From Rubritalea squalenifaciens DSM 18772 (GTDB taxonomy: Bacteria; Verrucomicrobiota; Verrucomicrobiia; Verrucomicrobiales; Akkermansiaceae): 64,000 nucleotides of DNA. The translations under genes were made by a program, and so were the position numbers. The stretch spans positions 287,091 through 351,090 of the forward strand of contig NZ_FQYR01000002.1 of assembly GCF_900141815.1 (NCBI RefSeq), read 5' to 3'. The notes under the pieces were generated by a model. That model made no database searches, was not told where the DNA came from, and was given only the letters and a program-made list of their open reading frames with translations. Positions 7,207 to 55,955 of this stretch are shown piece by piece (position 1 is the first letter of the stretch; each line of letters opens with the position of its first letter).

Positions 7207-7860
7207 TTAGAGAATGTCACCTGTGCGGGCGCGCTCCGCATAGCTGCGTAGTTCGGGGCTGTCGATCTCGCCAGCGAGATAGTTGTCCATCGCTTTCATG
7301 CAGCGCTCTGGATAGTAGCAGCTGAGTTCACCGTAGCCATGGATGGCGGCTTCCTGGCACGCCGGGTGATCGAGCTGGAGTGTCTGTGCGAGCACGGAGA
7401 AAATACAGTCATCTGTCTCCCGGGATTCGGCTACATCGCCTGTGTAACCAAGTGCATTGATATCCCAGAACATGTAGCATATGGCATTGAGGGGACTCTG
7501 GGATTCTTGATCAAGATGGCTGAGCGTGCGCGAACAACGCCGCATAAAGCAGTCCTGATATAGCCTGATAATAGAGCGGATGGAGGCAAGTCGTGTCTCA
7601 AGGGGAACTTCTGCAGACTTCAGAGCAAAGAAATAGTCTGAACAGGCTGTAGATAACAGGAACCAGAGACCTTGGTTTACCTGTGCATCGCTATAGGGTA
7701 GTAGGTCTGTGCCGCTATGGGTAAAAGTATCGCCGATCAAAATGGCAAAGTCCTCATTGCTACCGTCAAATTCCGGGGCGTCCAGATCCCAGTGCCAGGC
7801 AGGATCGGTGACCGGGTGTTCAAAGAGATAGACTAACCATTCCTTGTAACGTGGATGCAT
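7207..7860 (-). CDS. Conserved hypothetical protein, MHPxYxxWL family
   Basis: 217 residues, soluble and cytoplasmic, mostly helical. The start MHPRYKEWLVYLFEHP and the ends NAICYMFWD and ELRSYAERARTG match a family of uncharacterised proteins I recall from diverse proteobacteria, so the gene is real and intact; its role is not known to me. Such proteins often occur singly in accessory regions, and an immunity-like role is only a guess. The internal ATG at 7860 was preferred over 7878 because family members begin at MHP. Followed by a terminator; a stub of a second copy lies at 6497. Confidence 0.8.
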   Translation of the reverse strand: MHPRYKEWLVYLFEHPVTDPAWHWDLDAPEFDGSNEDFAILIGDTFTHSGTDLLPYSDAQVNQGLWFLLSTACSDYFFALKSAEVPLETRLASIRSIIRLYQDCFMRRCSRTLSHLDQESQSPLNAICYMFWDINALGYTGDVAESRETDDCIFSVLAQTLQLDHPACQEAAIHGYGELSCYYPERCMKAMDNYLAGEIDSPELRSYAERARTGDIL

Positions 7861-7896
7861 GATGTTGGTGTGAAACATGTATGAGTCGGATGATCC

Positions 7897-8367
7897 TCAT
7901 TTTATCTTGGACTCGATGAACTGGATTGTCTCATTGTTGAGGATCGTGGTGGGAATCATCGTGTAGTGGTCCATGTCGTAGGTGAAAAGGAGCCAGACAT
8001 CGCGAAACTTCCAGACGCCGGTGATTAGCTCCCATTTGATTGTCGATTGGTGCTGAGAGGTATGGAAGGTGAGATGTTCCTCGGTGAGCTGGATGGTGAC
8101 TTGACGGTCAGTCATAACCGCGAAGTTTGTATCGGCCAGGTAGTAGTACCTGCTCCATCCGAAGATATAATAGGCAGGAACGATCAACCCCACAAAGAGG
8201 TACCAGTCACGTCCACCCATGATCAGAGCTGACAGGCATCCCAGCGCGACCAAGGCAAAGATAATTAACCAAGGCCCAGCCTTTCGCCAGACGAATCGAG
8301 AGGCGGATTTATTGACAAGAGTCTGCGTAGCTTCGTACTCAAGTGTGATAGTTTCTGGGGTATCCAT
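7897..8367 (-). CDS. YcxB-like membrane protein
   Basis: 156 residues from the ATG at 8367; a GTG at 8394 would add nine residues and overlap the upstream gene. Two membrane segments at about 30-50 and 58-75 surround a short loop. A beta-rich C-terminal domain follows, with TEEHLTFHT, the lysine-tryptophan pair in TIKWELITGVW and a LFTYDMDHYTMIPTTIL segment. That layout fits the YcxB-like family, whose function is unknown. The upstream gene ends 17 bp away and also encodes a membrane protein, so the two are probably cotranscribed. Confidence 0.75.
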   Translation of the reverse strand: MDTPETITLEYEATQTLVNKSASRFVWRKAGPWLIIFALVALGCLSALIMGGRDWYLFVGLIVPAYYIFGWSRYYYLADTNFAVMTDRQVTIQLTEEHLTFHTSQHQSTIKWELITGVWKFRDVWLLFTYDMDHYTMIPTTILNNETIQFIESKIK

Positions 8368-8384
8368 GTTTTGAGTAGCGGGGC

Positions 8385-8693
8385 TCACTTCCACTTGAAC
8401 TTGTCGGTATCGACCGATTTTTCCCGGATGTCCTGCATGGGGATGAAGAGGATCTCGTCACTCTTGCAGAGGTATTCGAAGATGCCCCAGATAAGCAGGA
8501 GAAGGCCGATACCTGCGGCGAGGAGGAGAATGCCACCAACAATGAGGGTGGAGTTGGAGTAGGTCTTCTTGCGGGTGAATTCCACGCCAGTGCTATCGAG
8601 CGCGGTCATGCGCCAGTCGGCCACGGCGGCGAAGGAACGCAGGTGGCTGATGTAGCTGTTTTCCTGCGGGGTGAGTTCGTAGTCTTGAGGCAT
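8385..8693 (-). CDS. Small membrane protein, unknown function
   Basis: 102 residues. A soluble N-terminal part (MPQDYELTPQENSYISHL) precedes one long hydrophobic segment at about 48-75 (ILLLAAGIGLLLLIWGIF), then a charged tail with DIREKSVDTDKFKWK. Upstream partner of the YcxB-like gene, with which it probably forms a two-gene unit. No family recognised. Confidence 0.65.
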   Translation of the reverse strand: MPQDYELTPQENSYISHLRSFAAVADWRMTALDSTGVEFTRKKTYSNSTLIVGGILLLAAGIGLLLLIWGIFEYLCKSDEILFIPMQDIREKSVDTDKFKWK

Positions 8694-8768
8694 AGATGGA
8701 TTGTTGAAGTGAGATGGATGAAGGAGAAAGGAAAAAGGCAGGCTAGAGTGATTTGCTCTTAGTCTGGC

Positions 8769-9476
8769 CTATGGTTTGGGGCTGGTTTCGAGGTAGGTCT
8801 TGTATCTGAGTTCCCAGTACTTGCAGAATGTTTTCTGTTTGGCTTGGCCGCAGCAGCTCCAGTGTTCGATCCCTTGGATGGCCTTGCCGCAATGCTGGGT
8901 ATTGCCGCCGGGGACCACGCTGCGGCATCCGGTGCAGGCCGCTCCGAAGCGCCCGTGATGCCGGATCTTCCCGCCGAGCCGCACGATGGCATAGGCGAGC
9001 ACGCTGGTGACATGTTCTTTCCCTGTGAGGATGATACCGTCCTGCCCGGTCTTGTTGATGGCTTGCTGGGCGACGAGGAGTTCGCTGATGATGGCATCTT
9101 CCGCGGCTGCCTGGGATCTCTTGCTGGCGTCGTCACCGGGCTGCTTCCGCGCTTCTTCTTGGTCGAAGAGGTAGAGCGGCCAGGATTGATTGGTCCGGGA
9201 GAGGCGGTCGTACCAGAGGATGGCATGGGCATAGCGCACGCCTTTCTCAAAATCCGGATGCGCGGTGAAGCCGATGGCTCCGGGTACCTTGTGAGCCAGC
9301 TTGGAAAGATCATCCAGCGTTTTGGCCTGCACGAATCCGTCCTGACGGCTGAGGTCGATCACGCGGTGGAGGCCGCCGTTGAAGCCGTGCTGGGCCTGGT
9401 GATAGGACTGCGCCTGCTGGCAGTGCGCGGCGCTGGTTAGGATGAGGCAGAGGAGGAGAATCAGATAGGGCTTCAT
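8769..9476 (-). CDS. Exported cysteine-rich protein, unknown function
   Basis: 235 residues from the ATG at 9476. Signal peptide MKPYLILLLCLILTSAAHC-QQ. The middle part is helical with two lysine- and glutamine-rich stretches. The C-terminal 60 residues contain a cysteine/histidine cluster (ACTGC, HCG, HWSCCG, FCKYW) that could bind zinc or form disulphides in the periplasm. No homologue recognised. Preceded by AAGATAACACC, a variant of the boundary word. Confidence 0.7.
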   Translation of the reverse strand: MKPYLILLLCLILTSAAHCQQAQSYHQAQHGFNGGLHRVIDLSRQDGFVQAKTLDDLSKLAHKVPGAIGFTAHPDFEKGVRYAHAILWYDRLSRTNQSWPLYLFDQEEARKQPGDDASKRSQAAAEDAIISELLVAQQAINKTGQDGIILTGKEHVTSVLAYAIVRLGGKIRHHGRFGAACTGCRSVVPGGNTQHCGKAIQGIEHWSCCGQAKQKTFCKYWELRYKTYLETSPKP

Positions 9477-9518
9477 GGTGTTATCTTTGAAGAGGAAAAA
9501 GGCTGCTAGATGAAGCAT

Positions 9519-10067
9519 TTTCTACCACGGAATATACGGAAGTACCAGAAGGTTGGCCCCTGCGGGGAGTGTTCAGTGTGAAGTATGCAGTCCAGTACGA
9601 TGAAGCGGCTGTTGGTGGGTATTTTTCTCTTACCACGAATCGCACGAATTTCACGAATCGGGCTGGATGAAGCCCTTGCTGATGGAGCCCGGCTAGATGA
9701 AGCATGCGCGACCCGCGTTGGGGTCGTATTGTATTTGGAATGAGTTCCAGGGGTAGCGATCCTATGGCTCGCAACCCCTGGCTAAGTTCCGGAACCCCGT
9801 TGGGGTAGGCCCCTGCGGGGCATTACTGATTGGTGATGACTGATTCTGGCTAGTCGATCTCCTAACATCTAAAACGTAACACCTAAGACGCCTTGTTTAC
9901 CACGAATCGCACGAATCTCACGAATACGGGCTGGATGAAACCTAGCATGATGGTCTTAAGGGCATCTCTACGCGGGTCGCGGAGGTTTCATCTGGCTGGA
10001 CCATTAACAAATAAGCATTAACCAATAACAAGCCCAACGGGCGCTTGGGTGGAGGAAGGCTTGAGTC
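9519..10067. repeat. Intergenic repeat mosaic with REP and U105
   Basis: W9c (9521-9552), H1 tail (9556-9590), W9a (9632-9662), REP (about 9703-9808, AT-rich middle), G1 (9820-9845), the CTAACATCTAAAACGTAACACC word (9857), W9a (9897-9930) and U105 (9946-10049), which ends 18 bp before the next gene's stop. Confidence 0.75.
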
Positions 10068-10565
10068 TTATTGTGTGTCTCTAGGCTGTTCTTCGAGAGG
10101 AAAGAGCTTCTCGATGGCTTCGGGGTATATGTTCCAGTATCCCTTGAATTCTCTTAGCCCGTCTTTGCGCTTTAGGATCAGTCGGTCTTTATCGTAGGCT
10201 AGAACCAAGGTAGGGATATCTATTTTAGGGATGTGAATGGTCAGTTCCTGATTTTGATCTAGCTGGTAAGTACCCGAATGGTCCACAATGCTATATGCAT
10301 AAGATTTCATTATGACTTTTGAGCCGGGATAGAACAAGAACTCGATACTATCGAAGTTTGAACCTCCAGCTCCAACCATTAATGTATCCGCAAATACGAT
10401 TTTATGATCATTTTCAATCCGGTCACGAAAGAGGTTCTCTGGAGAAATGTGTTTCTGGCTCACCTCGGTTTGAGAAGACGTTTTGTTCTGGTTACATCCT
10501 GTTAGAGTGAGCAAGGCCACGCAGCAAAGCATGCTTGCCATCGTGTATGGTAATGTCTTTTGCAT
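10068..10565 (-). CDS. Putative lipoprotein
   Basis: 165 residues from the ATG at 10565. The N terminus has a hydrophobic stretch and lipobox LTGC at about 21-24, so the protein is likely lipid-anchored. The mature part is beta-rich (DSIEFLFYPGSKVIMKSYAYS, GTYQLDQNQELTIHIPKI) and resembles short lipocalin-like or stress-response domains without a clear match. The upstream gene stops 20 bp before this start and its stop lies in CTAACA; both are probably in one transcript. Confidence 0.75.
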   Translation of the reverse strand: MQKTLPYTMASMLCCVALLTLTGCNQNKTSSQTEVSQKHISPENLFRDRIENDHKIVFADTLMVGAGGSNFDSIEFLFYPGSKVIMKSYAYSIVDHSGTYQLDQNQELTIHIPKIDIPTLVLAYDKDRLILKRKDGLREFKGYWNIYPEAIEKLFPLEEQPRDTQ

Positions 10566-10584
10566 GGGTGGAGTGGTAGAAATG

Positions 10585-11037
10585 TTAGAGAGCATCGTCC
10601 TGGGTGACTTGCTCGCTATCGGGCGGGTAGAGATCCAGGCCGAGTGAGAGGCCTAGGCCTGCCAGTTGGGCGAGGGTCTGGGTGCTGAGGGTATCGCCGC
10701 CCTGGCCACTGCCGCTGCTGTAGCTGCAGAAGATCTCAGCCTCCACCTGGTCAGACTGGGCAAGCTGGCGGATGGCATCCTGGCAATGGGAGAGATTCTG
10801 GAGCAGGGACTGGATTTGCTCCTCGAATCCCAGATGGCTGGGGGTGGGTGAGCGGTAGCTCCAGATATTGGTGCGGGCGGGGCCATAGCTGCGGCCTTGC
10901 TTCCCGCTCCATTTCTGCCCGGCTATTCTTACCGTGGTGGGCGCCATGCCAAGCAGGGCTTCCAGCTTGGTGGGGTCCAGGCCATCCCCTACGAAACGCA
11001 GGCTGACAGCGAACCATTTTTCATCCTCAGACAGCAT
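10585..11037 (-). CDS. DUF4279 domain protein
   Basis: 150 residues. The pattern FAVSLRFVGDGLDPTKLEALLG, a PTTVRIAGQKW stretch, NIWSYRSP and a distal acidic segment matches the DUF4279 family, whose members are cytoplasmic, of unknown function and common in toxin-immunity gene clusters. The immunity link is family-level knowledge only; no toxin is visible here. The stop TAA is embedded in CTAACA, 20 bp before the lipoprotein start. Confidence 0.8.
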   Translation of the reverse strand: MLSEDEKWFAVSLRFVGDGLDPTKLEALLGMAPTTVRIAGQKWSGKQGRSYGPARTNIWSYRSPTPSHLGFEEQIQSLLQNLSHCQDAIRQLAQSDQVEAEIFCSYSSGSGQGGDTLSTQTLAQLAGLGLSLGLDLYPPDSEQVTQDDAL

Positions 11038-11081
11038 GGTGTGGAATGTGCGTGGTGGCTGGGGATTTGGCTTCCAGGCAT

Positions 11082-11594
11082 CTATTCATGGCTTTCCTTG
11101 GTCTCCAGTACGATGACGAGATGGCCTGTGCTTGGTGCCATGTCTTCATCGTTGAAGCCATTGTCAGTGTCTTTTACAGCGAAGGTGATGCTACCGTCCT
11201 TGTTAATGGCGGGAGTGGGGAGAAACGTGTCTGGGCGATGCTTCTTAGGAATTTCTAAGAGGCCGCGACGGCTAGCGTTATTGTGCTGAATCCAGAATTT
11301 GATGCCTTCCTCGTTGTCTTCCAGCACGATCGAGTACTCCTGCTTGGCGCGTTTCCCCGCACCAGTCCCGTCTTGGCTGAGAGTGCTTGAGGCGATCTCT
11401 TTGCCATCCAGATAGACCACGATCCGTGATCCGAATGATTCTTGCTTACCGGATGCTGTCAGTTCAAAAGAGGCTGCGTAGAGATTGAGGTAGGAAGCTA
11501 GGTCAGAGCTAGGAAAGGGTTTTGCTTTCAGCTCCTTGGCGTGGAGAGAGCAGCTTAGGGACAACAAGGCGGCAATAGTCAGTAGGTTTTTCAT
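11082..11594 (-). CDS. Exported protein, unknown function
   Basis: 170 residues with signal peptide MKNLLTIAALLSLSCSLHA-KE. Mature part beta-rich with RIVVYLDGKEIASSTLSQDG and TGHLVIVLETKE near the end; a helical linker with NNASRRGLLEIPKKHRPDTF lies between. The ATG is preceded directly by CACCTAAC. Probably periplasmic. No family recognised. Confidence 0.7.
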   Translation of the reverse strand: MKNLLTIAALLSLSCSLHAKELKAKPFPSSDLASYLNLYAASFELTASGKQESFGSRIVVYLDGKEIASSTLSQDGTGAGKRAKQEYSIVLEDNEEGIKFWIQHNNASRRGLLEIPKKHRPDTFLPTPAINKDGSITFAVKDTDNGFNDEDMAPSTGHLVIVLETKESHE

Positions 11595-11639
11595 GTTAGG
11601 TGTTTTAAGGTGAATGATGATGCTATGATCTGCAAAGGA

Positions 11640-46624: not shown

Positions 46625-47146
46625 ATGGAAGGAGATGTACTGATAGCAGTCGTTTATGCAGCGTCGGAGTTTCTTCCTGTAGTGCGTCTATTGCACGATG
46701 AGGGGGCTCCCTCTGCCTACGCTGAGGGGTCGGTGGCTTATGGTGTCATGGTGAAGGAGGAGGAAGCCGAGAGGGCGGTGGAGATCCTGCATAAGCATTG
46801 GGACGAGTTTGATTATCTGGACATCCTGGGGAAGGATGACTCGGAAGCACCCGTGTATATGGCGGAAGTCCAGTGTGCCCAGGGGCTGACTGATGGAGAG
46901 GGCGGCGAAGGTAAGGGTGGTACGGTCTTTTGTTTTGTCACAGCTCGGGATGGGCGCGAGGTGATCCAGAGGCTGGAGAAGACGTCGTGCCTGAAGCGGT
47001 GGAAGATGCATACCGTGACTGGAGTGCATCTCTACACGATGGGTACCGAGGAGTGGGGCGAAGCTGGCTTTGACAGCTTGGCAGATGCCGCCAGGAAGGG
47101 GAGATCGGTTGAGACCACGGGAGTCATGCCGATGGGGGACGAATGA
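46625..47146 (+). CDS. DUF2007-like protein
   Basis: 173 residues, soluble. Start LIAVVYAASEFLPVVRLLHD followed by EGSVAYGVMVKEEEAERAVE, the layout of DUF2007-type putative signal-transducing domains (a strand, a helix, a variable loop, then V-x-V-xx-E-xx-ERA). A second copy-like half covers FCFVTARDGREVIQRLEK. The last nine bases and the following 55 bp recur after the paralogue at 47196, so it abuts the duplicated unit. Likely cotranscribed with 47196. Confidence 0.6.
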   Translation: MEGDVLIAVVYAASEFLPVVRLLHDEGAPSAYAEGSVAYGVMVKEEEAERAVEILHKHWDEFDYLDILGKDDSEAPVYMAEVQCAQGLTDGEGGEGKGGTVFCFVTARDGREVIQRLEKTSCLKRWKMHTVTGVHLYTMGTEEWGEAGFDSLADAARKGRSVETTGVMPMGDE

Positions 47147-47195
47147 CGGCTCCCTTTTTGTGTCCTTGCGGTGGGGGAGGATTTCTGGGATAGAG

Positions 47196-49130
47196 ATGGG
47201 TATGTTCTGTCGTGTGTTGCTCTTACTATTTCTATTGCCGTTTAGTGTTTTGTTAGGTGGTGAGAGACTTATCCCGGGGGGCTATGATTTTGAAGTTCAG
47301 TGGCAGGTGAATAAGCGCGTGTATGGGCTGAGCGAGGCATTGGAGATCACGGCGGAATTTTCCTGCACGGAGGGGCGTGAGGGTTGTGCTCTGGAGTGGA
47401 ACATGGGAACCCGCAAGTTGGGAGAGAAGAGAGAGTGGTATGAGCTGGACGGGGAGATAGTGGTGAAGGCTTTCCAGAGCGCGGCAAGGGGAGAGAACTT
47501 TGAGAGTAAAGGGGTGAAGGGGGATGACTGGATCCGCTACGTGACTTATCCCGGCGAAGGTGGCTTGGGGGTACGCCTCACACGCCGCGAGAAGATGGTG
47601 GAATTTTCCCCGGAGAGAGTGCGCGCTTTTCTACGGATGGTAGAAGATGTCCAGTGTGCACGGGCCTGGTATGAAAAGCTGATGGTGGCGGAGGAGGTGC
47701 CAGAGTGGACAAAGCAGGCCCGGCCGCCGGCGACTGATCAAATCGTGGTGACTTCGAGGCTCGGGATGGTGGAGGCTGGTGAGCTGCGGCTGTTCCCGAC
47801 AGCTTACTATTACGTCAACAGTCAGCGTGCGGGTTCTGGGATTGGTGGAGATGTAAGCTATGGCGAGAAGCGGTACAAGGAGCCCAGGCCAGCGGGGATA
47901 CTGGTGAATTACTTAGCGAGGCTGAAGAGCAGGATTGAGGCTGGCAGTGTCTCCAATTTTCCACTGGTTATCCCTCAAGGCAGAGGGGTTAAGTTTCTGG
48001 TAGCGACTAACCAGCAGGAGAACTATGCGGATATAGAGATGGTAGAAGGAGACAGGAGGGTGAACCCGTTCAAGTACCTTGGAGTGGGTGACTGGAGTGC
48101 GAGGCTGAAGGAGGAGCAGCTGATTGAGATGGATAAGATAGCTCAGAAGTCCAAGCTTCATCATCAATGGATGGAGGAGCACATGCATTTATTCTATGAG
48201 CCCAAGAAGCGCATGCTTGCAGATGATCTCCAGTTTGAGGTGAAGATGAAGGTTCAGGATGGTGAGGAGGTTGGCGCCCATGTACATCTCGCCGTAGGAG
48301 CTATTAGACCTTACTCGAAGCAGAAAGTGGAAATGAGCGTAACCTTTCCTGCGTTTACCCTGCCTGATCTTCCGCTGGGAGATGATGAGGTGACAGAGTT
48401 TGTGAATGCCTGTATCGCCGCGAACAAACAGCAAAATTATCATGCGGTCGTTAGGGGGGAGGTGCCTATGGAGATAGAGGCGGAGGAGCTGTATGGGGTA
48501 TGGACGGTCAAGGTGAAGCGCGGGAACGCGCGCGTGGTCTACTCCCCTCAAATGGGGGCGAGACTGATAAAGCTGATGGACCAGGCCAAGGTGGCACGTA
48601 AGTGGTACTCCAAACTGCATGGCCTGTACGATCTGCCAGACGAGAGTGAGGAAGCATGTCCATCCGGAGCCACTGGCACTGAATTGGTGTTGAAGGTGGG
48701 GAGCGCACAACTGGCCGCCGGTAGGCAAGGGAGAATTAATCTGGAAGGCCGGGTGGAGCAGACTCTAGGCGGAGAGGTGCAGGTGGTGAAGGAGTTTGTC
48801 TATCATCAGGGCAGCAAGAAAGTGGTGCTCGGTACGGCGCTGTCAGCTGAGCTGCAGCCTCTCCTGCGTGAGGCCCTACAAGCCACCAAACAAAGTGAGG
48901 TCTATATGAACGGATGGGGTGATCCGGATGGCGAGCACTTCAGTCTGGAGGTAGACGAGAGAGAGAAAATCATTGATTTTACCTATGTGCCGGAGGCGGG
49001 TGCCGAAACTTTGCATCTTACCATTGATTATGGTTCTCCACAGAGGGTGCTGGATTTGTTAGAGAATGTGGAAAAAACTGGCGAGTGGCTGGGCCAGAAC
49101 CAGAAGCTCTTCTTCCGGCAGGACGAATGA
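47196..49130 (+). CDS. Secreted four-repeat protein, paralogue 1
   Basis: 644 residues. Signal peptide about 1-21 (CRVLLLLFLLPFSVLLG-GE). Four modules of about 155 residues follow. Each has a beta-rich part and ends with a helix containing WY or W plus an aromatic: AWYEKLM (158), HQWMEEHMHLFY (325), KWYSKLHGLY (469), EWLGQNQKLFF (631). Conserved link EVPEWTKQARPP between modules 1 and 2, and ELYGVWTVKVKRGNARVVYS in module 3. No enzyme motif; probably an exported binding or structural protein. The ATG at 47196 was chosen for the signal peptide; the frame opens at 47070. Confidence 0.85.
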   Translation: MGMFCRVLLLLFLLPFSVLLGGERLIPGGYDFEVQWQVNKRVYGLSEALEITAEFSCTEGREGCALEWNMGTRKLGEKREWYELDGEIVVKAFQSAARGENFESKGVKGDDWIRYVTYPGEGGLGVRLTRREKMVEFSPERVRAFLRMVEDVQCARAWYEKLMVAEEVPEWTKQARPPATDQIVVTSRLGMVEAGELRLFPTAYYYVNSQRAGSGIGGDVSYGEKRYKEPRPAGILVNYLARLKSRIEAGSVSNFPLVIPQGRGVKFLVATNQQENYADIEMVEGDRRVNPFKYLGVGDWSARLKEEQLIEMDKIAQKSKLHHQWMEEHMHLFYEPKKRMLADDLQFEVKMKVQDGEEVGAHVHLAVGAIRPYSKQKVEMSVTFPAFTLPDLPLGDDEVTEFVNACIAANKQQNYHAVVRGEVPMEIEAEELYGVWTVKVKRGNARVVYSPQMGARLIKLMDQAKVARKWYSKLHGLYDLPDESEEACPSGATGTELVLKVGSAQLAAGRQGRINLEGRVEQTLGGEVQVVKEFVYHQGSKKVVLGTALSAELQPLLREALQATKQSEVYMNGWGDPDGEHFSLEVDEREKIIDFTYVPEAGAETLHLTIDYGSPQRVLDLLENVEKTGEWLGQNQKLFFRQDE

Positions 49131-49184
49131 CGGCTCCCTTTTTGTGAGCTTGCGGTGGGGGAGGATTTCTGGGATAAGGTGCTG

Positions 49185-51119
49185 ATGTGTATGCGCCTGT
49201 TGCTGATTGTGTTGTTGTCGCTGACCCCCTTGTTAGGTGGTGAGAAGGTTCTGCCTGAGGGCGGGAAGTTTAAGGTGAAGGTAGTCCCCCAGTGGAAGAT
49301 CTATGGGTTATTTGATAAGATGCAGATTGCGGCGGTCTACCGCTTCGAGAGGGGCAAGGAGGAATGTGAGGAGAGTCTCCAGGCGTACTGTAGTGAGTTG
49401 CGTGACGAGAAGAGCTGGTATCCTCTGGATGAGGATGGACTGACGATGGTGTTTGCGGAAGCTGCCGCAGGGAAGCCCTGCTCGATGGTGAAAGAGGTTA
49501 AGGACAGGGAGGGAGTCGAGCTCACGTATGTATCCTATCAGGGCGTAGGCGGCTACGAGGTAAAGCTGAGTAGCGGGGAGCAGAGCGTGACATTCAGCCC
49601 GCAGGATATTAGGGACTTCATGGAGATCCGTGCGGTGTTTGATTCTTCCAAGGCCTGGTACGGCAAGCTGATGGTGGCGGAGGAAGTGCCGGAGTGGACG
49701 GAGAAGGCGCGCCCGCCTAAAGTCTACTGGGTCCGTGTGGATTCCGAGCTGGGAGCGGTGCAGGCCGGTGAGCTTACACTGCATTTCGGTGCTCAGATGA
49801 GGAGGGCCTTGCCGTATACTTTTCATGTTAGACAATACAGTGTGGACTATGGAGGAGAGAAAAAGGATGAGGGGCTGAATGGCAGATATCTCTATAGGGT
49901 TCTGACCTCGGTGGCGGATGATGTGAAGCGTGGCAGGGACAGGAGTATTCCCCTCAACCGGGGAAGGGCACCATCTCAGGTCACTTATCAGGTGAATGGC
50001 AGCGTAGCGGATGAGCGGGTACACGTGGTGTGTAGGGTAGATAACAAGGAGGTGGCGAAGGGGAGCTTCACGCTGGAGCAGATAGAGAAGATCCGTAGTC
50101 TGGATCAGCAGGTGCAGGAACGGCATGACTGGATGGTGGAAAACAGGAAGCTGCTCTACGAGGGCCAGCGAAGCGCGATCAGTGATGATGTAGGGCTGGA
50201 TATTTTGCTGAAGATCCGCTGCGAGCAGGCTCCTGAGATGGAGCCGATGGAGCTGCGTGTCGTGCGGAACAGAGGCTGGATGGACAGGGAGATGTCTCCC
50301 CTGTGGGTGGAGATGCGCTGGGAGGGATTTGGCCCGGACATAGGGGCCGTGCGCCGGGATGTGCTGGCTGAATACTGCAAGGCCTGCGAGGCGGCTGCGA
50401 AGAAAGAGAACTACCGCGTCGTGCTGAAAGGAGAGGTGGAAACGCTTATCGAGACGCAGGAAGTCTATGGCAGGTGGATGGTCAAGGTGAAGCGCGGAGG
50501 CAAGGTGGCGATGATCGCTCCAGGCCACCTGGATGTCATAAAGTGGGCGCTACACCAGGCGGACAATGCGCAGGCGTGGTATCAGAAGGTCATGGATACT
50601 CGTTTGGCTCCAGAGCCTACCAAGGAAGCACATCCTCCGGTCGTGGAGGATGCGGAAGTGGTGGTGAATGCGGCCCTGCAGATGGAAGGTGCCGGCCGCG
50701 GGAAGATGGGCTTCCTCCACCGGATGAGCTATACGCCAGAGGGAGGGGTGAAGAAGCAGCTGGCATTGCGCTGGAGTGAGTATGTCAAAGGTGGAGTGGG
50801 AGAGGTTGAGCACTTTGTGGATCAGGATCTCACTGAAGATCTGGACAGCCATTTTAAGGAGGCGATCAAGGCCCGCAATGCTGGTGAGAACTATCTCTAT
50901 GAGTGTGGGCAGAAAGGTGGCGAGCGCTTCCGTATGGAGGTGACGGAAGACAGCCGAGATATTGTCCTGCTGTATTTCCTGAAAGGAGAAGAGGAAGGGC
51001 AGAGGATGTATCTGGAGGAAAGCTGGATGATCCACCACAAGCAGAATGCCCAGCGGCTGGAGGAGGAGGCCGAGTGGCTGGAAAAGCATCCCGAGGTTTT
51101 CTTCACCCTGAAGAAGTAG
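49185..51119 (+). CDS. Secreted four-repeat protein, paralogue 2
   Basis: 644 residues, same architecture as 47196: signal peptide (MCMRLLLIVLLSLTPLLG-GE), then module helices AWYGKLM (158), HDWMVENRKLLYE (315), AWYQKVMDT (464), EWLEKHPEVFF (630). Shared phrases are LMVAEEVPEWTEKARPP, VYGRWMVKVKRGGKVAMI and a LPEGGKFKVK start. Separated from paralogue 1 by 54 bp whose sequence repeats the leader of paralogue 1. The two probably form one transcript. Function unknown. Confidence 0.85.
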   Translation: MCMRLLLIVLLSLTPLLGGEKVLPEGGKFKVKVVPQWKIYGLFDKMQIAAVYRFERGKEECEESLQAYCSELRDEKSWYPLDEDGLTMVFAEAAAGKPCSMVKEVKDREGVELTYVSYQGVGGYEVKLSSGEQSVTFSPQDIRDFMEIRAVFDSSKAWYGKLMVAEEVPEWTEKARPPKVYWVRVDSELGAVQAGELTLHFGAQMRRALPYTFHVRQYSVDYGGEKKDEGLNGRYLYRVLTSVADDVKRGRDRSIPLNRGRAPSQVTYQVNGSVADERVHVVCRVDNKEVAKGSFTLEQIEKIRSLDQQVQERHDWMVENRKLLYEGQRSAISDDVGLDILLKIRCEQAPEMEPMELRVVRNRGWMDREMSPLWVEMRWEGFGPDIGAVRRDVLAEYCKACEAAAKKENYRVVLKGEVETLIETQEVYGRWMVKVKRGGKVAMIAPGHLDVIKWALHQADNAQAWYQKVMDTRLAPEPTKEAHPPVVEDAEVVVNAALQMEGAGRGKMGFLHRMSYTPEGGVKKQLALRWSEYVKGGVGEVEHFVDQDLTEDLDSHFKEAIKARNAGENYLYECGQKGGERFRMEVTEDSRDIVLLYFLKGEEEGQRMYLEESWMIHHKQNAQRLEEEAEWLEKHPEVFFTLKK

Positions 51120-52085
51120 GCTGGATGAAACGCCCGCTGGGCGCTTGTCATTGCCCCTGCGGGGAGAATCGAGAATCTAGAATCAAGCCCGGCATGATGG
51201 AACCCAGCACGATGAAGCTTTTCTAACCACGGAATACACGGAAGGTACGGAAAGCGGGACTAGATGGAGCCCGGGACGATGAAGCGTTTCTAGCCACAGA
51301 TTACTCAGATTGGAATGGATTTCCTGCTAGATGAAGCCCCGCCCCTGCGGGGCGATTACTGATTACAAATTACAGATTACTGATCCCGGCTAGATGGAAC
51401 TTTTCTACCACGGAATACACTGAAGAGACAGAAGTCCTGAAGGGCTCACATCCCGTAGGGATGATGGAACGAAGCGCGGTGGTAAGCTTGCCCCGGCAAG
51501 CGCAACCCCGGGAACGGGGCCCACAAACAAAAACCACCCCGGAGGGGTGGAGGAAGGATGTTATCTCCTGTTGCTAAGTAGGCCGATGACCAGCCCGCAG
51601 GGCTTCGTTCCATCGTCCCAGGCTTGATTCTGTATTCATGATTCTCAATTCTCCCCGCAGGGGCCCCATCCAGCCTCGCGATCCTGTACAAGCTTCCGAT
51701 TAGATGATTCGGTACCGTAGCTAGTAGGAAGTAGCGAGTAGCCTCTCCGGATAAACCGGAGATCAATCACACATACAGGCCAGAGGGAAAAAGCATGGAT
51801 GAAATTTCCCGAGGAAATTTCCGCTACTCGCTACTCCCTACCTGCTACGGATCCTACCCTCCATTGCCTCCTGATAAACCCGCATGGGCGAACCCCAACG
51901 TGGGTTCCGGACCATAGCCCGGCGGTTGCGAGCCGCAGGGTCGCTACCCCGGGAACCTGCATCAGTCATCAGTAATCACCAATCAGTAATGCCCCGCAGG
52001 GGCCTACCCCAACGCGGGTCGCGTAGGTTTCATCTAGCAGGGCTTGTCATGGTCGGCTTGTCACTCTAGTTAGAGAGAAGAACTC
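51120..52085. repeat. Intergenic repeat mosaic with inverted modules
   Basis: H1 (51152-51185), W9c (51225-51255), W9b (51292-51318), G1 (51350-51390), M module with A-run terminator (51430-51560), inverted H1 (51640-51665), long-inverted-repeat element (51711-51853), inverted REP (51890-52030). No gene. Confidence 0.72.
51711..51853. repeat. Long-inverted-repeat element, copy 3
   Basis: Arms 51715-51741 and 51824-51850 (27 bases, three mismatches), inner CTCTCCGGATAAACCGGAGA and GAAATTTCCCGAGGAAATTT hairpins. The flank GATTCGGTACCGTAGCTAG and the following inverted REP are shared with copy 2. Confidence 0.8.
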
Positions 52086-52100
52086 TGAGGGAGGGGAATC

Positions 52101-52466
52101 ATGCTGAAGAGAATTTTACTATTGTTGGTTTTGGCTGCGCTGGCTGTGGGCGGGTACATCAAGGGGAAGGAATACCTGGAGCACCGGGCTGCCCAGCAGC
52201 AAAAGCGTAGCGAGATCGCTGAAGTTGTGAGCGATTTCGAGTGGGATGACTACAGTTACCGGTCGGTGTCTTATTTAACCAGCTACGGCTCTTTCGCGAT
52301 CACCAATGCTCCCTCCATGAGCGGTCTCCCGGCGGATCAGTTTGTCCTGATCCCCGGCAAGATCCCGGTCAATCGGGACAATGTGCTGGATGTGGTCACG
52401 CAGGCCGAGCTGATGCCCGTGGTGATCCCAGGCGGCGCAGAGTTTCCTGCGCAGGATGCACGGTAG
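52101..52466 (+). CDS. Signal-anchored protein, unknown function
   Basis: 121 residues. Membrane segment about 4-22 (ILLLLVLAALAVGGYIKG), charged linker, then a domain with DFEWDDYSYRSVSYLTSYGS and FVLIPGKIPVNRDNVLDVVT. Has a good Shine-Dalgarno (GGGAGGGG, 5 bp before ATG), unusual here, and an upstream GTTAGAG. Faces the minus-strand gene 52482. No family recognised. Confidence 0.68.
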   Translation: MLKRILLLLVLAALAVGGYIKGKEYLEHRAAQQQKRSEIAEVVSDFEWDDYSYRSVSYLTSYGSFAITNAPSMSGLPADQFVLIPGKIPVNRDNVLDVVTQAELMPVVIPGGAEFPAQDAR

Positions 52467-52481
52467 TGAGTGATGAATCTT

Positions 52482-53000
52482 TTATTTCTTCGGCTCCGTG
52501 ATGGTGAGGGATATGAGGGTGCTTTGAGAGCGGTTGTAGCCGAAGTCTAGCAGGGTGTCGCCGGGCTTGTAGATTTTTCTGGGGCTGACGCTGTGGTAGG
52601 TACTTGGCGTTTGGAAGAGGGTGTACTTGCCCGCCACGCTGGAGCCGTCCGCGAGTATGATTCTGGCCATCAGATGGGTTTCACCTCCACGTGGCTCCAT
52701 GGGAATGAGGATGAGAGTCACGACTTTGCCAGCATTTTCACCCACTTCCACGGAGAGAAAAGAGGTGGTGGCCATCGCCTTTCCACTGGCACGGCGGCTG
52801 GTGAGCCTGATGAGGGAAGCCGCGGAGGCATCTGCCGGGATCCTTACCCGGTGCACCGTGCCACCCTTGGCCATGACCAGGCTTTCATCCACGAGCGGCT
52901 TGACGTCGTCTGCGGCTAGGACGGTGGCTGGCAGAGCAAGGCATAGGGAGAGGGCGGCAGAGGCTTTGATGAGTTTTTTCAGAGATGCAGATGGTTTCAT
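52482..53000 (-). CDS. Exported protein, unknown function
   Basis: 172 residues. Signal peptide about 1-29 (KKLIKASAALSLCLALPATVLA-AD). Beta-rich mature part with MAKGGTVHRVRIPADASAAS, KVVTLILIPMEPRGGETHLM and a KPGDTLLDFGYNRSQSTLIS end, suggesting an immunoglobulin-like or jelly-roll domain. CTAACATTC lies about 25 bp before the start. Likely periplasmic. Confidence 0.7.
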   Translation of the reverse strand: MKPSASLKKLIKASAALSLCLALPATVLAADDVKPLVDESLVMAKGGTVHRVRIPADASAASLIRLTSRRASGKAMATTSFLSVEVGENAGKVVTLILIPMEPRGGETHLMARIILADGSSVAGKYTLFQTPSTYHSVSPRKIYKPGDTLLDFGYNRSQSTLISLTITEPKK

Positions 53001-53126
53001 ACAGGAGGTAGGACTCCTGAATGTTAGAATCTATTCAAGAAAGAACGTAAAAAGATGGACTGGAGTTAGAGAAGGAACGGTGGAATGTGCTGGTAGCTTC
53101 GTGGTTCTTGGTCATAGCCTCAGCCC

Positions 53127-53669
53127 ATGCGATGGCTGAAAGTGATTTGTTGTGTGGCGTTTTTATCTGGCTTGGTGTCCTGCAAGGAGAAGAAGGACCC
53201 CGATCAGGAAGATGCCATGGAAGATCTAGTCAGTGCCATGGCGGAGGCGGTGAAGGCTGATGGTGACATGGTATCCCATTCCTATACTCGCCGTTACTCT
53301 GAGTACCACCAGACTAGCCCGATTGACTTCACCTTCAGTACCGTTGAGGAGGCCACCGCAATCTCCAGCCAGATCAAGCAGAAGCTGGAGGGCAATGGTG
53401 CTGAGATCCTGATGTACCGTTCGCATGCTGCTTCAAAACACCATAACGGGGGCTGGGATGGTGGTATAGAGTCCTTCAGGAAGCCTGGATTTCTGGGTAG
53501 TCATTACGGATCAGGTTACAACGGAGCCTCAGGCAAGCTGGCGAAGCAGAGCTGGATTTGCGTCTCCTGCGCGGTGCGCTATCAGGAGACAGACTTCCTG
53601 CTGCACTGCCGCCTCTATCCGCAGGCCCAGCTAGCTCAGTTCTCCGCCCATCTGATTCCGGAGGAATAG
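53127..53669 (+). CDS. Putative lipoprotein
   Basis: 180 residues. Lipobox LVSC at 16-19. The mature part has an acidic helix (DQEDAMEDLVSAMAEAVKAD), THR/TYR-rich RRYSEYHQTSPIDFTFST and a glycine-histidine stretch (ASKHHNGGWDGGIESF). C-terminal strand pair with SWICVSCAVRYQETDFLLHC. Probably outer membrane. Sits inside the interval between paralogues 2 and 3. Confidence 0.7.
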   Translation: MRWLKVICCVAFLSGLVSCKEKKDPDQEDAMEDLVSAMAEAVKADGDMVSHSYTRRYSEYHQTSPIDFTFSTVEEATAISSQIKQKLEGNGAEILMYRSHAASKHHNGGWDGGIESFRKPGFLGSHYGSGYNGASGKLAKQSWICVSCAVRYQETDFLLHCRLYPQAQLAQFSAHLIPEE

Positions 53670-54026
53670 GGGCACGACCAGCAGGGATTCGTTCTAACCA
53701 TGGTTCCTTCAGAATGTGAGAACCTTCCTCCACCCCTCCGGGGTGGTAGTTAGAGAGAGGCGGGTTCCCGGGGGGGCGCTCCCGATGGTCGCTTACCCCG
53801 CGCTACTCTCCATCACCCCTCCGGGGTGTTTCCTGCTAGTTGTTTACCCAATGACTAATGATCAATGACCAGCCCGCAGGGCTTCGTTCCATCATGTCGG
53901 GCTTGATACTGTATTCTCAATTCTCCCCGCATGGGCTCCATCTCGTCAGGCTTTATCCTTTCTCCTCTATACTTCCTGCTTCCCTAGCTCTTGTCATGGC
54001 GGGGCTTTTCTGGGATAAGGCAGGTG
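53670..54026. repeat. Intergenic repeat mosaic, inverted M module
   Basis: Inverted M module with CCACCCCTCCGGGGTGG (53728-53745) and GGGGTGTTTCC, N1 reversed (53846-53870), inverted H1 (53905-53945). The last 50 bp match the leader of the four-repeat paralogue 2 (TTCTGGGATAAGG). Confidence 0.68.
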
Positions 54027-55955
54027 ATGTGTATGCGCCTGTTGATTTTGTTTCTGCTGTTTCCCTTGTCGTCTTTGTTAGGATCTGAGGCTCTGATTCC
54101 TGAGGGGCAGAAGATGAAGGTGAGCTGGGGGATCCGTGAGGGTGCCTACGGGGTACACAGGCAGATGGTCCTGAGTGCGAGCTACTATTTCGAAGGGGGT
54201 AAGGACGCGTGTAAGATCGAATGGTATGCCTCGCTGCGTGGGTTCAAGGAGGGCTATGAGCGTAGCGAAGTGGATGCGGAGGAGCTGTCCAAGGTATTTC
54301 TCAGTGCGATCTATGATGAGCCCTACGAGGGGTCGTCTGTGACGGATGGGACTCAGGTATACTATGAGTGCGTGCGGCAGCAGGTGGGGTACACGGTGCG
54401 CGTGAGCATAGGGGAAAAGTTTCTAGATTTTACGCCGGATGAGGTGAGCAGCTATGCCCGGATGTTTGAGGATGCTCTGGCGGCGCGTGAGTGGTACCGC
54501 AAGCTGGCCACGGCGACATCCGTGCCGGAGCAGACGGAGGAAGCCAGGCCGCCATTCACGGAGAGAATAGGGATCTATTGCTTGTTAGGGACGGTGGATG
54601 TGGAGCCACTGAGGATAGAGGCCTACGCGTCCTATTATGACAATGGGGAGAAGCAGGGCGTCAGCCGCGGCCTGGCAGTGGGCTACGGGGAGGGCAAGTT
54701 CCGGAGAGCCCTGCCTGCCCCTAGCCTGAGCAGGAGACTGGAGAAGGTGCCAGAGAAGCTGGAGAAGGGAGAGAAAGTACCGGTCATCACCTCGCTCCGG
54801 AGTTCTAGCGAGTATTACCGGCTGACCTTTGACCAGAAAGAGCGCAGTGCGGAAATGGAGCTGTTGACGCAGGGAGAGAAAATCGGGCTGGTGGATGCCA
54901 CGACTGAATGGACGGTCACGATTCCCCGGCAGAAGCTGCAGCAGCTGGCGAAGTACCAGCAGCAGGCGCTCGCCATGAATGAGCAGCAGCATGCATGGCT
55001 GGAGAAGCTGGCCGAATTGCTCTACACGAAGGCGAAGCCTATCCTGACCCATAACGCCAGGCTGTATCTCACTAGGGACTTGGGCGATAAAAAGCTAGGC
55101 AGGGTGGCGCTGCACGTGGAGACGGATGGTCTCCTCCACGTGGACAAGGACAAGGGGAGGCGCTTATCCAAGATATTCCTGCAGTGGCCGGGATCTAACC
55201 AGAAGAGGTGGAAGCTCAATCCAAAGGAAATCATGGAGCTGGCCCGTGTCTGCGAGGCTGCCGCGGAGGGCAAGATCTATAAAGGCGAAGTAGGCACTGA
55301 GAATAAGATGTATGTGCAGGCTGTGGAGGGCTACGGGCACTACCTCGTCAAAGTACGCCGCGGTGAAGAGAGGGCGGTGGTCATGCCGGAGGTCCGGGGA
55401 AAATTGTTAGAACTACTGCAGCAGGCCGAGCCCGCCGCCAGCTGGTACCTCAGCTTATACGGCGTGTACAAGTCACCTCCACAGGTGCCCACAGCCCGTC
55501 CCCTGCCTCAGGAGGATACGGGTCTCTTGGTCGATGCTTACCATCTGTCCGCTGGATTGGGGAAAACCTATCATGCCCAGGTGGAGATGCTTCCCAATGG
55601 TGAGGTGCAGGAGATGGTGATCCTGCTCTGGAAGGAAGGGAAGCGAAGGTGCCGCATCAGCCGCGGGCTGGGAGCGGAGCTGTACAAGGCGCTGCCAGAT
55701 GCCATCGCGGCTGCGGAGCTGGAGGCCGACTATACCAGGACACTGTTCAGTGAGGAGGGCGAGCAAATCACTCTCACTGTGGCCAAGGAGAAAATCATGC
55801 TCACCCACACGCTTCCAGGAGGCAAGCTATCCTGCACAGACGACCTGGAGGTGACTGGTTCTGCGCTTCCCAAGAAGCTGGTCAAGATGGCCCGCGAGAT
55901 GGGCGAGACCCTGCGCAATAACCCACAGGACTTTATGAGGCCAGAGCAGGAGTGA
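54027..55955 (+). CDS. Secreted four-repeat protein, paralogue 3
   Basis: 642 residues. Signal peptide MCMRLLILFLLFPLSSLLG-SE, then four modules whose helices are EWYRKLAT (155), HAWLEKLAELLY (323), SWYLSLYGVY (472) and a shorter final ETLRNNPQDFM (628), where the Trp is lost. Shared EGYGHYLVKVRRGEERAVVM strand. More diverged than paralogues 1 and 2 from each other, and 2.9 kb away, so an older copy. Function unknown. Confidence 0.85.
   Translation: MCMRLLILFLLFPLSSLLGSEALIPEGQKMKVSWGIREGAYGVHRQMVLSASYYFEGGKDACKIEWYASLRGFKEGYERSEVDAEELSKVFLSAIYDEPYEGSSVTDGTQVYYECVRQQVGYTVRVSIGEKFLDFTPDEVSSYARMFEDALAAREWYRKLATATSVPEQTEEARPPFTERIGIYCLLGTVDVEPLRIEAYASYYDNGEKQGVSRGLAVGYGEGKFRRALPAPSLSRRLEKVPEKLEKGEKVPVITSLRSSSEYYRLTFDQKERSAEMELLTQGEKIGLVDATTEWTVTIPRQKLQQLAKYQQQALAMNEQQHAWLEKLAELLYTKAKPILTHNARLYLTRDLGDKKLGRVALHVETDGLLHVDKDKGRRLSKIFLQWPGSNQKRWKLNPKEIMELARVCEAAAEGKIYKGEVGTENKMYVQAVEGYGHYLVKVRRGEERAVVMPEVRGKLLELLQQAEPAASWYLSLYGVYKSPPQVPTARPLPQEDTGLLVDAYHLSAGLGKTYHAQVEMLPNGEVQEMVILLWKEGKRRCRISRGLGAELYKALPDAIAAAELEADYTRTLFSEEGEQITLTVAKEKIMLTHTLPGGKLSCTDDLEVTGSALPKKLVKMAREMGETLRNNPQDFMRPEQE

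Follow-up and report, generated by a model that had tools for sequence, protein, structure and literature searches.

Putatively exported tandem modules with a predicted PUR/Whirly-like fold form a rare protein family in Rubritalea squalenifaciens and a few other Verrucomicrobiales

In the PUR repeat, a sheet of four strands leads into a helix, and two repeats make up one domain (set out in part of PMC2954813). Two such beta4-alpha repeats per globular domain occur in Pur-alpha, Borrelia Bpur and DUF3276 (PF11680), together the PUR proteins, and it is in this respect that the predicted B module of the family described here resembles them. A resemblance to PUR repeats has been noted for COMM domains (a passage of PMC6089597), and Whirly, Pur-alpha and the guide-RNA-binding proteins MRP1/MRP2 are known nucleic-acid binders (PMC4764581, in part). 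A related fold is also found in the bacterial SsgA-like protein SsgB, an actinomycete cell-division factor with one domain per chain. Here, we describe three genes, W1 to W3, in a 64,000-nucleotide stretch of Rubritalea squalenifaciens DSM 18772 (contig NZ_FQYR01000002.1, positions 287,091 to 351,090; hereafter the window), whose products are built of two alternating modules, A and B. With a probability of roughly one half, we read them as exported, multivalent binding modules with a PUR/Whirly-like fold, the ligand probably being a protein or a glycan and not a nucleic acid.

The three genes lie on the plus strand and start with ATG (all coordinates below are those of the window unless stated otherwise):

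47196..49130, plus strand: W1, 644 residues, ATG; predicted signal peptide followed by A1-B1-A2-B2; open reading frame with two AB profile matches, model with mean predicted local distance difference test (pLDDT) 77.2
49185..51119, plus strand: W2, 644 residues, ATG; predicted signal peptide followed by A1-B1-A2-B2; open reading frame with two AB profile matches
54027..55955, plus strand: W3, 642 residues, ATG; predicted signal peptide followed by A1-B1-A2-B2; open reading frame with partial AB matches at residues 92-249 and 394-520

An earlier, sequence-only reading had proposed three secreted proteins of 642-644 residues, nearly equal in length despite wide divergence. This description largely holds: the genes are where it placed them, and pairwise identities among W1-W3 are only 186/630, 179/632 and 156/625 (25-30%). 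At each N-terminus, a short n-region of positive charge precedes a hydrophobic segment, whose best 10-residue hydropathy is 3.0-3.1 compared with 1.6-2.1 elsewhere in the proteins; there is no lipobox, and residues 12-26 lack cysteine in all three. Signal-like N-termini were likewise found in 17/17 free-standing genes of the family, the weakest being that of the paralogue C3 (see below). Hydropathy was the sole criterion for these export signals, with starts placed by hand ahead of the hydrophobic stretch (one codon late in genomes G387 and G140).

What is the repeating unit? The same reading had counted four modules of about 155 residues, each closed by a helix containing W-Y. The fourfold build is supported; the repeat seen in sequence is instead a unit of about 310 residues, AB, present twice per protein as A1B1A2B2:

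47256..47729, plus strand: W1 module A1, alignment split at the RPP boundary
47730..48206, plus strand: W1 module B1, alignment split at the RPP boundary
48207..48665, plus strand: W1 module A2, alignment split at the RPP boundary
48666..49127, plus strand: W1 module B2, alignment split; matches Whirly 4kop_C at Z 9.8 in the W1 model
49236..49718, plus strand: W2 module A1, alignment split at the RPP boundary
49719..50168, plus strand: W2 module B1, alignment split at the RPP boundary
50169..50639, plus strand: W2 module A2, alignment split at the RPP boundary
50640..51116, plus strand: W2 module B2, alignment split at the RPP boundary
54081..54554, plus strand: W3 module A1, alignment split at the RPP boundary
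54555..55034, plus strand: W3 module B1, alignment split at the RPP boundary
55035..55505, plus strand: W3 module A2, alignment split at the RPP boundary
55506..55952, plus strand: W3 module B2, alignment split at the RPP boundary

The closing W-Y proved to be confined to the A modules (residues 158/158/156 and 470/465/473 in W1/W2/W3), with an additional WY inside A1 (81/78/66). The B modules have a W only, at 325/316/324 in the first B module and at 631 in the last B module of W1 and W2, and the last B module of W3 has none. A profile of 11 AB units, all taken from other genomes, gave two matches each in W1 (residues 23-336 and 346-642, whole-protein E 1.6e-46), W2 (50-325 and 337-640, 2.2e-46) and W3 (the partial spans given above, 8.8e-28), and no match at E<=10 in 147 controls (7 reversed and 140 shuffled sequences). 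None of these 11 units comes from the window genome, yet they were originally found by searches with window sequences; it is thus the controls and not the E-values that carry this test. When profiles of A and B were compared, they aligned in register (hhalign score 29.1, E 3.2e-4), a score equalled by 0/200 column shuffles, while a single reversed profile scored 10.7. Likeness between A and B shows only in profiles, weakly, and in predicted structure.

We modelled the AB unit of the 338-residue Persicirhabdus protein (genome G024) with AlphaFold from a 15-row alignment and obtained a confident model (mean pLDDT 91.1, predicted template-modelling score 0.85). In this model, DSSP assigned the order beta-beta-beta-beta-alpha twice to the B half, and the same order of elements plus a short extra helix to the A half. 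VIA-align was applied to the best 1000 Foldseek candidates; among its 16 rows with Z>=5.8, 15 were Whirly, Pur-alpha or MRP1/2 and the remaining one was 2it9 (Z 6.9), and the next row had Z 4.5. These 15 rows cover 118-138 residues at 3.4-6.8 A, and the best of them for B is 4kop_D (Whirly; Z 8.2, 124/145 residues, 3.4 A). The W1 model gave a similar picture for its last B module: 4kop_C (WHY2; Z 9.8, 129/152 residues, 3.4 A) came first, and StWhy2 (9.2), PURA (8.4) and an SsgA-like protein (3cm1_C, 7.3) came further down, with 2nvn (Z 6.9) and Rtt106 (Z 5.2 and 4.5) as lower rows. The A modules of W1 have nearly the strand and helix order of B, the first repeat of A2 being poorly modelled. 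The alignments behind the two models (15 and 12 rows) left out the units of C1-C4, G077 and G387, that is 6/21. Thus, the B module likely adopts or closely resembles the PUR/Whirly fold, and the models make a fold of this kind probable for A too.

How do the window proteins compare with each of these groups? For B, PURA ranks high among the structural matches (Z 8.0 in the Persicirhabdus model, besides the W1 value above); the window family differs from PUR proteins by its export signals and its modules in series of two or four, and its 21 AB units show neither a PurA or DUF3276 profile match nor the motif KxNxRxxF. The Whirly proteins (WHY1-3, PBF-2) provide the best structural rows, covering most of the domain; here the AB units differ by the lack of a Pfam match and of KGKAAL, by export signals and by tandem modules. 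MRP1/MRP2 belong to the same fold group (2gia_A, Z 7.4) and gave no sequence match in the PDB search; their organism and location differ from those of the window family. No sequence similarity between SsgB and AB was found.

Sequence searches led to no convincing match with a described family. Pfam and NCBIfam gave nothing above cut-off for six window open reading frames (best E 0.019 and 0.057), and no enzyme domain was found by either in the window proteins. Against Pfam at E<=0.1, the 21 AB units matched six families at 0.02-0.097, each in one unit, and PurA, DUF3276, Whirly and SsgA-like profiles were not among them (hmmscan). One unit of 21 matched PHROGs (E 0.0052), nothing fell below E 0.16 in the PDB sequence search, and no toxin, immunity or adhesion signature appeared in the searches made. 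A match in a viral structure library (E 7.9e-4) was set aside, its template-modelling score being 0.23-0.26 and its root-mean-square deviation 12.2. Because cytosolic PUR proteins (DUF3276) were found in 0/20 genomes, the window genome included, and in 1/14 control genomes, no sequence bridge to known PUR proteins was built. Among the open-licence PMC articles listed, no PUR or Whirly protein of periplasmic, secreted, extracellular or verrucomicrobial kind was apparent by title and start of abstract. The window had no Rfam match, and a promoter and terminator scan did no better than shuffles. The earlier statement that no known domain is recognisable therefore agrees with Pfam, PHROGs and PADLOC, and with NCBIfam for the window proteins, none of which has a convincing match; its further suggestion of an undescribed domain gives way at the level of fold, because the predicted B half resembles the PUR/Whirly fold.

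What might such a domain bind outside the cytoplasm? The nearest folds bind nucleic acids (PMC4764581, in part), and exported nucleic-acid binders acting on extracellular or periplasmic single-stranded DNA or RNA, for example in a biofilm matrix or in nucleotide scavenging, could be envisaged. In the strands, as taken from one model, basic residues slightly outnumber acidic ones (KR 0.131, DE 0.116), which would suit such a role. We nevertheless regard it as unlikely: (i) the PUR contact motif KxNxRxxF, a pattern that we derived from K138/N140/R142/F145 as they appear in part of PMC4764581, is present in 0/21 AB units, and a relaxed form gave 1 match against 0.61 expected; (ii) the net charge is negative in 17/21 units; and (iii) no nuclease or DNA-uptake gene was noticed by eye among the neighbours. 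KGKAAL, the Whirly motif, is equally missing from all 21 units. Conversely, SsgB recruits FtsZ (in parts of PMC3814722 and PMC8061694), a protein-recruiting precedent for a related fold. From the export signals, this precedent, the absent motifs, the acidity and the peptidase fusion described next, we infer that ligand binding outside the cytoplasm, to protein or glycan, is the favoured function.

In genome G077, AB forms the C-terminal end of a 972-residue open reading frame with an M28 peptidase domain (E 2.9e-35), a PDZ domain (E 4.4e-16) and a PA match just below cut-off. All 8 of the 8 M28-PDZ homologues retrieved lack AB and stop directly after PDZ; AB was therefore probably added to this protein as a module, and the notion that M28-PDZ peptidases generally end in a diverged AB is rejected. 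The fusion raises the possibility that AB binds a secreted peptidase and acts as its inhibitor or chaperone, in cis for the fusion protein and in trans otherwise, with fast paralogue divergence reflecting an arms race with proteases, and the tandem, diverged, exported paralogues described below would be in keeping with it. Such regulation of proteases is nonetheless improbable in our view, given that the window genome and G024 have no M28-PDZ match at E<=1e-10, that a single fusion was seen and that the peptidase also occurs in genomes in which no AB was found (G082, G086, G201).

The family is not private to the window locus. A genome search with W2 revealed, on another contig, four adjacent genes, C1-C4 (331/349/321/327 residues; 7605-11633 of locus L012, gaps of at most 20 nucleotides), with one AB unit each; the AB profile gave one match in each, that in C3 being weak (E 6.3e-6). 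The window genome thus has ten AB units in seven genes. In a tree of AB units, the first halves of W1-W3 form one cluster (100/99) and their second halves another (97/89), the deeper branches being weak and several rows long. Thus, AB was probably doubled before W1-W3 separated. The ten single-AB genes and one fusion seen in other genomes leave the doubled form to the window genome. Genome G189 carries three tandem AB copies and a fourth on another contig.

AB is rare in its order: a profile search found it in 9/386 sampled genomes, the window genome included. Counts that include the centre genome were 3/260 in the taxonomic family of the window genome, 3/48 in the genus of G189 and 2/74 in the taxonomic family of G077; a sample of the phylum gave 2/387, both in the window genome's own family, and 0/11 other genomes of its genus matched. 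These counts are lower bounds, as only first-pass candidates were scored. The named hosts, for 7 loci, are Persicirhabdus sediminis and metagenome-assembled genomes labelled Verrucomicrobiales, Verrucomicrobiaceae, Akkermansiaceae and Verrucomicrobia. This rarity bears on whether the domains might oligomerise through their helices, like PUR repeats and SsgB, into a lattice in the periplasm or at the surface. A PUR domain arises from intertwined repeats, which may also belong to two chains (part of PMC2954813), SsgB crystallises as trimers (part of PMC8061694), and A77 and W143 are invariant in the 21 AB units, all of which would suit an envelope structural or assembly protein. A family so rare in its order is, however, not a general part of the envelope, and we give this explanation little chance.

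Divergence between the copies is pronounced next to conserved flanks. W1 and W2 share a leader that is almost identical:

47137..47192, plus strand: leader before W1, 54/56 nucleotides identical to the W2 leader
49121..49176, plus strand: leader before W2, overlapping the last W1 codons, 1984 nucleotides after the W1 copy

The coding sequences of W1 and W2 are 46.9% identical at the nucleotide level over 630 codons, compared with 54/56 for the leaders. In a patch of 20 codons near codon 157, nucleotide identity rises to 83%, and the same codon is used for 35/71 identical residues, more than the 21.2 predicted from codon use. The 56-nucleotide leader has no further occurrence of that length in the genome. 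W3 shares with W2 14 nucleotides of leader and the start of the signal-peptide region; a leader common to all copies was rejected, as only W1 and W2 carry it, and the one match in L012, with 3 mismatches and far from the C1-C4 cluster, is no more than expected by chance.

The tandem genes of G189 show a comparable contrast: downstream flanks are 85-93% identical and coding sequences 69-72%, with a ratio of nonsynonymous to synonymous substitution (dN/dS) of 0.63-0.85. In the G024/G067 pair, dN is 0.26 and dS 1.9. A raised ratio was likewise seen for G189_3/G140, a pair from different genomes (0.23/0.36 by NG86, 0.21/0.67 by YN00), which counters any neat division of arrays from single copies. 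All these ratios come from few, diverged pairs with partly saturated synonymous sites. Raised dN/dS between copies, tandem diverged genes and a patchy distribution would fit contact-dependent competition or immunity factors, in line with the competition that the sequence-only reading suggested. That idea seems very unlikely to us: neither a toxin domain nor a linked effector came to notice, PADLOC returned only RmrA, weakly (E 0.0086, 1/21 units), and there was no match in viral contigs (query A4), plasmids (query W2) or phages (query, the unit of locus L039), at one query each, which also speaks against a mobile origin. Upstream flanks in G189 are alike in one pair (198/244) and not in the other two (117/229 and 109/241), and coding synonymous sites are more diverged than the downstream flanks as well; gene conversion of the flanks is thus as good an account as selection. 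The contrast in divergence may therefore reflect either fast diversification or gene conversion acting on the flanks.

The surroundings of W1-W3 have features of their own. Just upstream of W1 lies a further gene:

46625..47146, plus strand: open reading frame of 173 residues, ending 49 nucleotides before W1 and possibly co-transcribed with it; no Pfam or NCBIfam family above cut-off

Small genes (about 100-250 residues) predominate in the window, mostly on the minus strand, and at 44-60 kb several of these look secreted or lipoprotein-like by eye. Intergenic regions, at 4700-63400 of the window and at about 287-440 kb and 480-500 kb of contig C2 of this genome (G000), are mosaics of short repeat modules, for example around CCACAGATTACGCAGATT, ACCACGAATCGCACGAATCTCACGAAT and GGTGATTACTGATGACTGATT, with 15-28 matches per module in the window at <=2 substitutions. 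The modules form an island: 139 matches lie in the window, compared with 2 in nine 20-kb control regions, and 246/251 matches in the island stretches examined fall outside called genes. Exact matches to one module pattern number 32 in the window genome, 3 in one congener and 0 in 37 other relatives. On contig C6, three matches to two modules were found at 5792-5892 of L012, 1.7-1.8 kb before the C1-C4 cluster; the same end of the contig has 4 matches in 114-134 kb and 3 in 152-163 kb, and controls on contigs C3, C4 and C5 and at 20 kb of contig C6 gave 1 match in total. A role of these repeats as cassettes oriented with genes was unsupported, plus/minus ratios being alike in all gap types. Around the AB genes of other genomes, two open reading frames (L043, 3985-5793; L044, 5415-6416) within about 3-4 kb of an AB gene have look-alike starts (MSF-FASSH..., an acidic run, then QPMQRSGMVRAFSHLP) and no Pfam match at E<=0.001, and the Persicirhabdus AB gene has as a neighbour, not far from the end of the contig, a short open reading frame that looks transposase-like by eye (L039, 11812-12147).

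Several observations weigh against reading the family as exported binding modules of this fold. The fourth strand in the first repeat of A is 2 residues long in the Persicirhabdus model and was not seen in W1 A2. The matches to solved structures cover B modules only, and the W1 model is moderate, with stretches of A2 below pLDDT 50. Root-mean-square deviations in the structural matches lie between 3.2 and 6.8 A, Foldseek by itself found no PDB match at E<=0.001 with the Persicirhabdus model, and the aligner's own caution is that a Z of about 8 can reflect a common arrangement. The sequence homology between A and B is weak (probability 38.8%), and 1/200 block shuffles equals its score. The peptidase fusion is a single event, and no shared neighbour gene was noticed by eye around AB genes in a survey of 119 open reading frames, of which 10, together with the six in the window, were scanned against family profiles and the rest judged by eye. 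Lastly, gene conversion, as said above, explains the divergence as well as selection does.

How would exported binding modules work and evolve? AB would be the heritable unit: ten genes of other genomes have it free-standing, the window genes carry it twice, and in one case it has been joined to the C-terminal side of an M28 peptidase-PDZ protein that looks secreted. After export, the curved beta-sheet of each domain may serve as a binding face, and helices, including one with the invariant Trp of A, may pack the domains together, in a role comparable to that of accessory binding domains of secreted enzymes. Tandem duplication, followed by divergence of the mature part under conserved leaders or signal peptides, could then tune the copies to different partners. 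The patchy spread, the diverged tandem paralogues and the one peptidase fusion would all fit an exported binding role. A bolder version, which we hold to be rather doubtful, is that a fold known to bind single-stranded nucleic acids inside cells was turned, in a few Verrucomicrobiales, into an exported, tandem, fast-diversifying recognition module, with leaders and signal peptides kept or homogenised and the arrays serving as a small repertoire of binders against partners that change, such as phage, polymers of prey, or proteins of a host or competitor.

Thus, AB defines a new and rare family with export signals, whose modelled B module takes on, or comes close to, a known fold, as A probably does too. 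If this is right, a fold met chiefly in the cytoplasm, the nucleus and organelles would gain a defined and testable family, with a modular PUR/Whirly-like domain that is exported and whose fusion to an enzyme would point to a binding role, and there would be a small bacterial system in which the divergence of tandem paralogues under like flanks may be studied.

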